Position numbers and translations under genes: made by a program. Positions 1 to 4,862 of a DNA stretch of 6,591 nucleotides are shown here, one piece after another. The stretch is from a bacterium (GTDB lineage: Bacteria > JAJVIF01 > JAGGVT01), in NCBI GenBank assembly GCA_021157815.1, contig JAGGVT010000216.1:1-6591 (forward strand), in the 5' to 3' direction. Each line of letters begins with the position of its first letter. The stretch's first letter is position 1. The notes below the pieces were generated by a model that was not told where the DNA came from, searched no databases, and saw only the letters and a program-made list of their open reading frames with translations.

Positions 1-120
1 AACTTACTAACCTGCTAACTTACTAACCTGCTAACTTACTAACCTGCTAACTTACTAACCTGCTAACTTACTAACCTGCTAACTTACTAACTTACTAACT
101 TACTAACCTGCTAACTTCTT
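1..120. repeat. 8-bp tandem repeat array with two alternating unit variants (left edge cut by window)
   Basis: Fourteen uninterrupted 8-bp units cover bases 1-112, followed by a decayed unit (AACTTCTT) at 113-120. Two unit types occur, A = AACTTACT and B = AACCTGCT, in the order ABABABABABAAAB, so most of the array is also a 16-bp repeat. The run of three A units at 81-104 breaks the alternation and looks like a slippage or conversion event. Each unit boundary carries a TAA on the + strand and TAA/TAG on the - strand. Because 8 is not a multiple of 3, stops fall in all six frames, so the array is non-coding. It starts at the first base of the window, so its true length is unknown. There are no unique spacers, which excludes CRISPR. 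Confidence 0.97.
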
Positions 121-2077: not shown

Positions 2078-2578
2078 ATGGCATCCAAAACAATTTTCAC
2101 ATTAGGATTTGAAAATTTCACACTTGTGGATTTTATTCACATTGTTAACGAACAGAATATTATCAGAGTCGTTGACATTCGAGGCAAAGACAGGATAGCT
2201 CATGGCCGCGCGCCATTTTCACCTGAGCAGCTCAAATCGATTCTTCCCAATATTAACGTGGAATATATTCAAATGCCCGAGGTTGGCATGCCGGACAAAC
2301 TAAGGAAATTGTCCAGTGACAACGGGAATAGAGCTGATTTCATCAAGGAGTACTTTGAGTTTATCAGTTCTGACAAATCCATTATCAAAAAGATTAAGAA
2401 ATACTTCTCTGATGACAAAGTGCTGATACTGTGCATCGAGGAGGACCCCTACACCTGCAAGCGAAAACCGTTTGCTAAATTCATTTCATCCACACTCAAT
2501 GGAAAAATAATCATAAAAGACCTCTCCATCAAGGACCTTAAACCGCGTGTGATACCACCACTTCCGCCACTTGAGTAG
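2078..2578 (+). CDS. DUF488-family protein
   Basis: This 166-residue soluble protein has the DUF488 layout. It has an N-terminal strand FTLGFENF (7-14) where the family usually has a TIGHS-like motif, VVDIRGKDR (31-39) in the place of the family's VDVR segment, and the signature LCIEEDPYTCKR at 118-129 with two cysteines (C119, C127). Two changes from the usual family pattern are visible: the early GH-S is GFE, and the C-H-R triplet is C-K-R. The biochemical function of DUF488 proteins is not settled, so no activity is assigned. The tail is proline-rich (PPLPPLE). The gene starts 23 nt after the galU stop and has no clear Shine-Dalgarno sequence, so translation may depend on coupling or a leader independent of SD pairing. 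It ends in TAG followed directly by a second in-phase TAG. It looks lysine-rich and more A+T-rich than galU. Confidence 0.85.
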   Translation: MASKTIFTLGFENFTLVDFIHIVNEQNIIRVVDIRGKDRIAHGRAPFSPEQLKSILPNINVEYIQMPEVGMPDKLRKLSSDNGNRADFIKEYFEFISSDKSIIKKIKKYFSDDKVLILCIEEDPYTCKRKPFAKFISSTLNGKIIIKDLSIKDLKPRVIPPLPPLE

Positions 2579-2659: not shown

Positions 2660-4318
2660 GTGATTAATGTCCGGATGGCTGGAACATTTTCGATGATACT
2701 ACTTTATGCCGCGTTTGGTGATTCACTTGTGATGACGATGTACAGAGCGTACATCCATCAGCCGCTTGAGAATTTTGCCAACAACTATACCGCCTATTTC
2801 CTGCTTCTGCCGGAAAGCATTGTGCTGGGAACAGCGGTTCTCCTTCTTGTTCTGGATTTAATCAAGCCGAATCGAGATTCACTTAAAGCGCCGGTGGTGG
2901 CGATTGTCGGTACGCTTATTTCGCTTTCAATGGTGTATTACACGCAGTACCTGACATCAAGATATTTCAATCCGGCGCTGGGGCAGTACTGGGGCGGCCT
3001 TGAAACAATTGACCCGTTTAGCTTATTTTTAAAATCGATTGCTTTCCTCGGTGTGATTTTCGCTATTTTGATGTCTATCAAGACAAGACTGCCGAGAAAG
3101 CATACGGGTGAATACTACTCTCTATTATTATTTGCCACAGTGGCGATGACTTTCGTTGTGTCATCATCGGATGTTCTCGCTATCTGGATAATGACTGAAT
3201 TTGTCTCGCTGACAAGTTATATCATCGTCGCGTTCAACAAGCATGAACCGAGATCGGTCGAGGGCGGATTGAAATATCTCCTGCTGGGCGCTATTTCATC
3301 AGCTTTCATGCTGTATGGTTTCTCAATCCTGTATGGTTACACGGGGACAACAAATCTATATGTGATGAAAACCATCCTTATTCAGTCAGCTGAACAGGTT
3401 ACGAATCCGATATTCGTGCTCGCGATTGGCATGTTCATGGTTGGCATCGGATTCAAACTTGCAATCGCGCCATTTCACACTTGGGCGCCGGATGCGTTCG
3501 AGGGAGCGCCTTTGCCTGTCGCAGCTTTTATTGCTGTAACGCCCAAAATAGCTGTCGTCGCAGTGTTTTTAAGGGTTTTCCTTCTTGGACTCGCGAATGT
3601 CGCTGTAATCTGGGTCCCGATGATGATTGGGTGCGCCATTCTGAGCATGGTTATCGGCAACCTGTTCGCGATTCGCCAGAATAATATCAAACGATTCCTC
3701 GCATATAGCGGAGTCGCGCAAATGGGGTTTGTGCTGATGGGCTTATGCGCTGCGGGGGTGCAATCGCAAAGCGACCCCAATGCCGCCATTAAATCCCTTG
3801 GATACAACGCGATGCTCAACTACATGGTGATTTACGCCATAATGACGCTTGGAGCGTTTTTGATAGCTAATGTTGTAAAATTTCATACAGGCAGCGAGGA
3901 CTTCAGGGCGTACCGGGGACTATTCCAGCGCGCCCCGGCATCGGCACTTACCATGATGGTCTGCCTGCTGTCGCTTGCCGGCATTCCGCCAACATTAGGT
4001 TTCAGCGCAAAATTTTTCGTCTTTGCGGCTGCAATCGCCAAAGAGATGTGGCTGCTTGTTATCGTTGGCGCGCTGATGTCGGTTATCGCAGTATTTTACT
4101 ATCTTAGGTGGATTTGGGTAATGTTCCTTGTTGAACCGGAAGACAGTACATTAATCCTTCCAAGTCGCCTGCACAGATTGTCAATGATTCTTCCGATCTG
4201 GCTGCTCGCTTTCGCTTATGTTCCATTCCCTTTCGTCGGGGGAACCATTGCTAAATGGATTTATGACTACGCCGCAGGAGCCTATTTCCTTACAATCAAC
4301 GTCTATTTCGGATCATAG
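2660..4318 (+). CDS. nuoN: NADH-quinone oxidoreductase subunit N (complex I antiporter-like subunit)
   Basis: NuoN is one of the three antiporter-like membrane subunits of complex I and conducts protons across the cytoplasmic membrane. The product is strongly hydrophobic with about 14 predicted membrane segments. Family landmarks, numbered from the GTG at 2660, are E180 in IMTEFVSLTSY, K205 in EGGLKYLLLG, K266 in GFKLAIAPFHTWAPD, the EGAPLPVAAF loop (281-290), K296 in VTPKIA, NLFAIRQNNIKRFLAYS (334-350), and K451 in GIPPTLGFSAKFF. These correspond to the charged residues of the proton path. From GTG 2660 the protein is 552 residues, some 50 longer than typical NuoN, and that start lies only about 10 nt after the predicted transcription start. 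ATG codons at 2675, 2693 and 2732 are in frame. The one at 2732 (528 residues) has GGTGAT at 2717-2722, though the spacing is long. The start is therefore uncertain. No nuoL or nuoM is adjacent. A related antiporter subunit is a less likely alternative. Confidence 0.92.
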   Translation: MINVRMAGTFSMILLYAAFGDSLVMTMYRAYIHQPLENFANNYTAYFLLLPESIVLGTAVLLLVLDLIKPNRDSLKAPVVAIVGTLISLSMVYYTQYLTSRYFNPALGQYWGGLETIDPFSLFLKSIAFLGVIFAILMSIKTRLPRKHTGEYYSLLLFATVAMTFVVSSSDVLAIWIMTEFVSLTSYIIVAFNKHEPRSVEGGLKYLLLGAISSAFMLYGFSILYGYTGTTNLYVMKTILIQSAEQVTNPIFVLAIGMFMVGIGFKLAIAPFHTWAPDAFEGAPLPVAAFIAVTPKIAVVAVFLRVFLLGLANVAVIWVPMMIGCAILSMVIGNLFAIRQNNIKRFLAYSGVAQMGFVLMGLCAAGVQSQSDPNAAIKSLGYNAMLNYMVIYAIMTLGAFLIANVVKFHTGSEDFRAYRGLFQRAPASALTMMVCLLSLAGIPPTLGFSAKFFVFAAAIAKEMWLLVIVGALMSVIAVFYYLRWIWVMFLVEPEDSTLILPSRLHRLSMILPIWLLAFAYVPFPFVGGTIAKWIYDYAAGAYFLTINVYFGS

Positions 4319-4338
4319 AATCCTCAATAAGCCGAATG

Positions 4339-4593
4339 GGGACACCAGGTTACATTTTATAAACCTAAAAGTTTTTCACCTGGGAGCGCTGGTTTCTAAC
4401 CGGCACCTGTGTCAGGTTAATAGAAATCAATTGAGCTTTTCTAATAAACGACATATCCAAAAACAGGCGTTGAGTTAATCAGCCATGTTTGTAAGATTCC
4501 CGTTTTGGCACTTTAGTTAGTCTGTTCAAGTGCCGGTTAGAAACCAGCGCTCCCAAGGGAAAACAAAGAAATAATGATGTAACCCGGTGTCCC
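4339..4593. repeat. 255-bp element of nested inverted repeats
   Basis: An inner pair of 26-bp arms at 4381-4406 and 4530-4555 is perfectly complementary. The left arm begins TGGGAGCGCTGG and ends CCGGCAC. An outer pair of 17-bp arms at 4339-4355 (GGGACACCAGGTTACAT) and 4577-4593 pairs with a single mismatch. The arms are separated by 25 and 21 unpaired bases, and the central loop is 123 nt (4407-4529). Immediately after the inner left arm a small dyad ACCTG-TGT-CAGGT occurs at 4405-4417. Transcribed RNA could fold into a long stem. No target-site duplication is evident at the outer ends and no protein is encoded. A short non-autonomous mobile element or a structured intergenic repeat is the most likely identity. 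Confidence 0.8.
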
Positions 4594-4602
4594 TTCACCG
4601 GG
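4583..4602. repeat. GC-rich hairpin competing with the outer arm of the nested element
   Basis: CCCGGTG (4583-4589) and CACCGGG (4596-4602) form a perfect 7-bp stem with a six-base loop. Bases 4583-4589 also belong to the outer right arm that pairs with 4339-4355, so the two pairings exclude each other. There is no T-run after the stem on either strand, so it does not look like an intrinsic terminator. Confidence 0.6.
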
Positions 4603-4716
4603 GTAATACGTGAATCAACCATATTTCCACAAAAATGCATTACCGTGCGACATCATTCATCAGCACAAAACACCCAAACAAAATAACCGAGTTCGGTTAA
4701 TAATCACTTTTTCGAA

Positions 4717-4743
4717 TTTAATTCGTACCCGGTACAAATTAAA
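4717..4743. repeat. 27-bp near-perfect palindrome, copy 1
   Basis: Arms TTTAATTCGTACC (4717-4729) and GGTACAAATTAAA (4731-4743) flank a single central C and pair at 12 of 13 positions. The surrounding 30 bp (4712-4741) match the second copy at 4832-4861 in 27 of 30 positions, in direct orientation. It resembles a binding site for a dimeric regulator or a dispersed intergenic palindrome. A smaller dyad, TAACCGA-GT-TCGGTTA, lies just upstream at 4684-4699. Confidence 0.75.
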
Positions 4744-4837: not shown

Positions 4838-4862
4838 TTAATTTGTACCCGGTACCAATTAA
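4838..4862. repeat. 25-bp near-perfect palindrome, copy 2
   Basis: Arms TTAATTTGTACC (4838-4849) and GGTACCAATTAA (4851-4862) flank a central C and pair at 11 of 12 positions. The core GTACC-C-GGTAC is identical to copy 1 and lies exactly 120 bp downstream of it. Its centre is about 90 bp upstream of the -24 element of the sigma-54 promoter match, within the usual range for an enhancer-binding site. Confidence 0.75.

Follow-up and report, generated by a model that had tools for sequence, protein, structure and literature searches.

A lineage-restricted family of REPIN-like, long-spacer REP doublets, one of them behind nuoN, with sites that appear to be maintained while their spacers diverge

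The gap behind nuoN analyzed here raises the question of why non-coding DNA should hold a nested inverted repeat with perfectly matching inner arms, and whether this perfection reflects youth or maintenance. The repeat lies within a stretch of 6,591 nt (the window), in the long gap between nuoN and a response-regulator gene, and starts 20 nt 3' of the nuoN stop codon (4316–4318). Re-measurement returned exactly the layout described in a first-pass annotation of the window: an inner arm pair of 26 bp without mismatch and an outer pair of 17 bp with one mismatch (GGGACACCAGGTTACAT/ATGTAACCCGGTGTCCC, 4339–4355 with 4577–4593), nested around a 123-nt loop (Table 1). The assertion that the inner repeat is far beyond chance also stands, as the longest perfect inverted repeat in 300 simulated 255-nt sequences (first-order Markov) was 16 bp. 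With mismatches tolerated, the inner pair extends to 37 nt at 92% complementarity, and the predicted RNA fold of the element reaches −108.5 kcal/mol (z = −10.5; none of 200 shuffles was as good).

Table 1. Features of the element in the window (window coordinates)
Feature	Position	Strand	Description
Left outer arm	4338–4353	−	Truncated REP2 (GTAACCTGGTGTCCCC on the − strand), second hairpin half absent
Left inner arm, REP1	4381–4406	+	24-mer core 4382–4405, GGGAGCGCTGGTTTCTAACCGGCA
Asymmetric spacer	4407–4529	+	123 nt between the perfect arms; 117 nt between the 28-nt arms
Right inner arm, REP1 inverted	4530–4555	−	24-mer core 4531–4554
3' shell piece	4556–4578	+	GGGAAAACAAAGAAATAAT...; common to copies L002, L003, L005 and L006
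Right outer arm	4579–4603	+	Complete REP2 hairpin GTAACCCGGTGTCCCTTCACCGGGG; several dozen REP2 in the genome

The element is one of many. In the source genome (3.2 Mb in 221 contigs, about 91% complete), about 40 further copies were found at 73–93% identity, and the family as a whole comprises about 45 dispersed copies, a number that may in truth be higher because some copies lie at contig ends. The idea of a dispersed structured repeat family, one of the candidates raised from the letters, is thereby borne out. The 24-nt inner site by itself has 96 matches in the genome at up to 3 mismatches, and a reversed pattern used as control has 0. The repeat was not found in 39 related genomes, only 3 of which belong to the same class; the 24-mer pattern had no match in 84,980 GTDB-220 species genomes and IMG/VR (source genome excluded), and a search of a plasmid collection gave just one short chance match to the window element. 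Judged by these searches, the family is apparently lineage-restricted. The first-pass annotation had held that a single copy without conservation in relatives and without RNA would speak against its reading; the copy is not single, although the relatives searched did indeed lack it.

All aligned copies share one plan, namely a 24-nt site, an asymmetric spacer and the same site inverted. The conserved unit, REP1 (GGGAGCGCTGGTYTCTRACCGGCA), consists of an unpaired GGGAG head, preceded by CCT, and a small hairpin, which reads GCTGGTC-TCT-GACCGGC in the consensus and GCTGGTT-TCT-AACCGGC in the left arm of the window. This local hairpin is also predicted as ssDNA, and over a longer range the two facing sites can form one long hairpin with 26 predicted pairs. 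Covariation of the stem, a check proposed at the outset, could be found at the local level: across 17 distinct REP1-type sequences, 91.6% of the cells are paired with 8 two-sided changes, and the covariation score of 0.230 compares with 0.111 in shuffles (none of 500 came up to it) and with no more than 0.088 on sliding the hairpin position. The closing pair varies between C-G, T-A and A-T. In the subfamily of the window element (L001–L005), C13T and G17A occur in both arms, the closing pair is T-A, and it is through these four coordinated changes that local and long-range pairing are both kept. Spacer length between the 28-nt arms is 112–119 nt for 36 copies, against 135 nt for the copy on contig C117. 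Related REP1 variants also occur as short inverted doublets (C27, C50, C144 and C148).

Sites and spacers have changed at very different rates. On a spacer tree built with FastTree from the copies of this one genome, 22 changes fall on the 48 site positions (12 and 10 in the two sites), compared with 461 on the 117 spacer positions, which makes the sites 8.6-fold, or about nine-fold, slower per position. Tip branches alone add up to 4.6 substitutions per site on this tree, and for this reason about 220 site changes would be expected under post-insertion drift. The conservation has a sharp edge at base 24, with positions 25–28 varying at the speed of the spacer, and the copy on C117 combines identical arms with an almost unrelated spacer. 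Detection bias does not explain the pattern, since a search with the spacer alone gave 41 matches, every one of them a known family member bearing the conserved sites. As decay would strike site and spacer equally, we infer from the copies of this single genome that the sites must have been protected after insertion, be it by selection or by homogenization. A recent origin of the arms, which had been considered as one reason for their perfect pairing, is contradicted by the divergence around them: over the element as a whole, even the nearest copy reaches only 92–93% identity, and spacers show up to 30% divergence from the consensus; still the arms are the same. The arms thus pair perfectly because each 24-nt site is conserved, not because they are young.

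In most copies, a decayed DUF772 (IS5-type) insertion sequence with the terminal inverted repeat GTCGTCCCTGAAAAA has provided the enclosing ends, and the earlier suggestion of a non-autonomous mobile element is in this respect well founded. The IS ends are placed about 45–60 bp or more beyond the arms and carry 0–4 mismatches in 15–18 positions. A remnant of the DUF772 transposase is present on C217 (E = 1e-15), with decayed relatives on C28 and C64; an intact DUF772 transposase was not found, the C217 remnant itself being the sole protein match. Candidate 6-bp TANNTA target duplications show 73% identity versus 57% for mispaired flanks, in a comparison of 8 elements. The copy on C129 and five contig-end fragments are 97–100% identical, which indicates recent movement. 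Flank combinations are shuffled, with R-R ends in L020, L035, L039 and L066, the spacer is inverted in L034, and L010, L013 and L023 have mosaic shells; the shuffled flanks and the reversed spacer demonstrate recombination via the arms. A minisatellite of CTAACTTA/CTAACCTG units was noticed at window positions 1–117, with similar arrays next to other family copies (C27), and an array of this kind apparently took up one family copy (end of C164 with start of C71).

It could be argued that the elements are plain IS-derived MITEs whose inner arms are alike simply because the copies are young, and the IS ends outside the arms of most copies as well as the nearly identical C129 subfamily would fit this. 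However, the spacers have diverged where the arms have not, a rate contrast that disfavors youth, and the IS ends themselves have drifted. Moreover, the window copy and others house the same cassette in a different shell, and C117 kept its arms with a spacer that is almost unrelated; we therefore judge this explanation to be quite improbable. Homogenization deserves somewhat more credit but is still unlikely in our view: gene conversion between identical arms would keep the sites alike without any function, and the shuffled flanks, the inverted L034 spacer and the mosaic shells indicate that arms do recombine. Yet conservation ends at base 24 although homology runs on, and conversion tracts should include positions 25–28, which instead vary like the spacer. 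In addition, a single arm can differ from the 24-nt site while its partner arm is unchanged. It is the sharp edge at base 24 that makes us favor selection over homogenization.

Two further explanations concern the element as a regulatory device. Long perfect inverted repeats around about 120 bp, and a spacer reversed relative to its shell in L034, are reminiscent of an invertible switch in which the arms flip a spacer that would hold a promoter. An active switch should result in a mixture of orientations, but nearly all classifiable copies in IS shells share one spacer orientation; on account of this near-uniformity the switch was rejected, and we give it almost no credence. The very stable fold and the position after gene ends could raise the suspicion of a factor-independent terminator, or of a curated structured RNA, at the nuoN 3' end; a structured RNA at this side of nuoN had been among the initial candidates. 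The stem, however, lacks a T-run and is followed by A-rich DNA, for which reason the terminator was rejected. Rfam contained no family at gathering score, and its only match, a weak microRNA hairpin far below the cut-off, was dismissed as a chance match to a long hairpin. The terminator or RNA explanation is thus very unlikely, and the element is not an RNA specific to nuoN, which is just one among many neighbors of the copies.

With a simple ORF caller, 16 copies were placed in convergent, 15 in tandem and 4 in divergent gene gaps, with 3 ambiguous cases and 0 intragenic ones (p = 0.012 for convergent versus divergent gaps). This is the pattern described for REPs, which lie mainly between genes in tandem or convergent order (PMC3733652). 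The gap behind nuoN holds a second, unrelated palindrome, TTAATTNGTACC(C/G)GGTACNAATTAA, at window positions 4718–4742 and 4838–4862, which occurs at about 59 genomic sites and is frequently paired; the spacings of 12 pairs with apparently unrelated spacers are 94, 106, 107, 107, 119, 120, 129, 131, 131, 131, 141 and 143, in steps of roughly 12 bp, and 0 of 5000 simulations were as periodic in this post hoc analysis. A gene for a DUF488 protein (window 2078–2578) is located between nuoN and a nucleotidyltransferase-like gene.

The REP1 loop itself has been a target of insertions. On C133 and C218, two unlike small insertions with matching ends occupy the same loop base; the accompanying TTCTA duplication is exact in C133 and has one mismatch in C218. 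According to the literature, known REPs serve as insertion targets of certain ISs, ISPpu9 being one example (PMC8450116). The loop insertions (L080 928–1117; L007, which is C218) have GGGGCTGTTGAAAAA-type ends and unlike interiors, and a further GGGGCTGTTGAAAAA-type element with an ATCCT duplication was seen on C43.

A shell other than these IS ends surrounds the window copy and its closest relatives, with a hairpin of another REP type, REP2 (GTAACCCGG/GTAGCCCGG), in the 5' flank. The window copy has REP2 pieces in both flanks, where they constitute the outer arm pair; its left outer arm matches the 5' flank common to copies L002, L004, L010, L013, L023 and L080. On C182, REP2 lies around a RAYT gene (L047 1300–2110), and a similar GTAACCCGG-type REP flanks a RAYT gene on C85 (L048 362–1060); RAYT-linked REPs are thus present in this genome, with at least two REP-transposase pairs. 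The exact REP1 24-mer flanks none of the nine Y1/RAYT (Y1_Tnp) genes of the genome, and a degenerate relative of REP1 was seen only at the RAYT gene on C65, some 65 bp upstream of it, with a chance probability near 0.06 by a rough estimate.

How does the family relate to known repeats? The 24-mer is, as REPs are, an extragenic imperfect palindrome of 20–40 nt present in many copies, and its likeness to the GTAG REPs (Di Nocera et al., 2013, PMC3733652) includes the unpaired head, the organization as dimers, the occurrence of several REP types per genome, the Y1 transposases and the location in tandem and convergent gaps. In contrast to these, there is no GTAG tag, with GGGAG in practically all sites instead, and the spacer is longer than the 20–100 bp of most REP dimers (PMC3733652). 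With REPINs (Bertels and Rainey, 2011, PMC3116915), the family shares inverted REP-like sites joined by a less conserved spacer, an extragenic location and the capacity to form one long hairpin, which all complete copies have; it differs in the GGGAG rather than GTAG head, in a near-constant spacer of 117–123 nt (112–119 nt between the 28-nt arms, and 135 nt in C117) instead of about 20–100 bp, in a cognate RAYT that is only a candidate, and in the IS-derived shell of most copies. IS5-type MITEs (DUF772) are likewise non-coding, with terminal inverted repeats that match a decayed IS of the genome—as is the case for most of our copies—and putative 6-bp TANNTA duplications, but here a REP doublet takes the place of the transposase gene, and the window copy has other flanks without an IS shell. 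Correia/NEMIS and ERIC are small dispersed intergenic inverted-repeat elements as well, Correia with ends of about 26 bp. The likeness to them is one of description; in our family, the arms are hairpin sites in their own right, and the shells are different. In conclusion, the family is a long-spacing REP doublet that is REPIN-like, and we do not file it as a REPIN because its tag and spacer depart from those of the known doublets and its cognate RAYT is at best putative.

Taken together, we consider it probable that the element is a REPIN-like long-spacer REP doublet, in most copies within IS-derived shells, whose sites are selected for a hairpin- or protein-recognized function at gene 3' ends. 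IS-derived shells would then carry most REP1 doublets around the genome, and selection would hold the 24-nt sites where they land near gene ends; the recognizing factor and the 3'-end role are putative. More tentatively, and with some doubt on our side, purifying selection may act on the 24-nt sites copy by copy, for a host role that is independent of mobility and in which a nucleoid, RNA or hairpin protein would bind them, with the long neutral spacer serving as a built-in clock. In REPs and REPINs, recent spread and maintenance of the sites are hard to distinguish, and here each copy brings its own diverged spacer of about 117 nt as an internal yardstick for site conservation. If selection does act copy by copy, this spacer clock allows recent spread to be told apart from selection on REP sites. 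Furthermore, packing of a REP doublet into IS ends could enable a REP type to spread without a transposase of its own.
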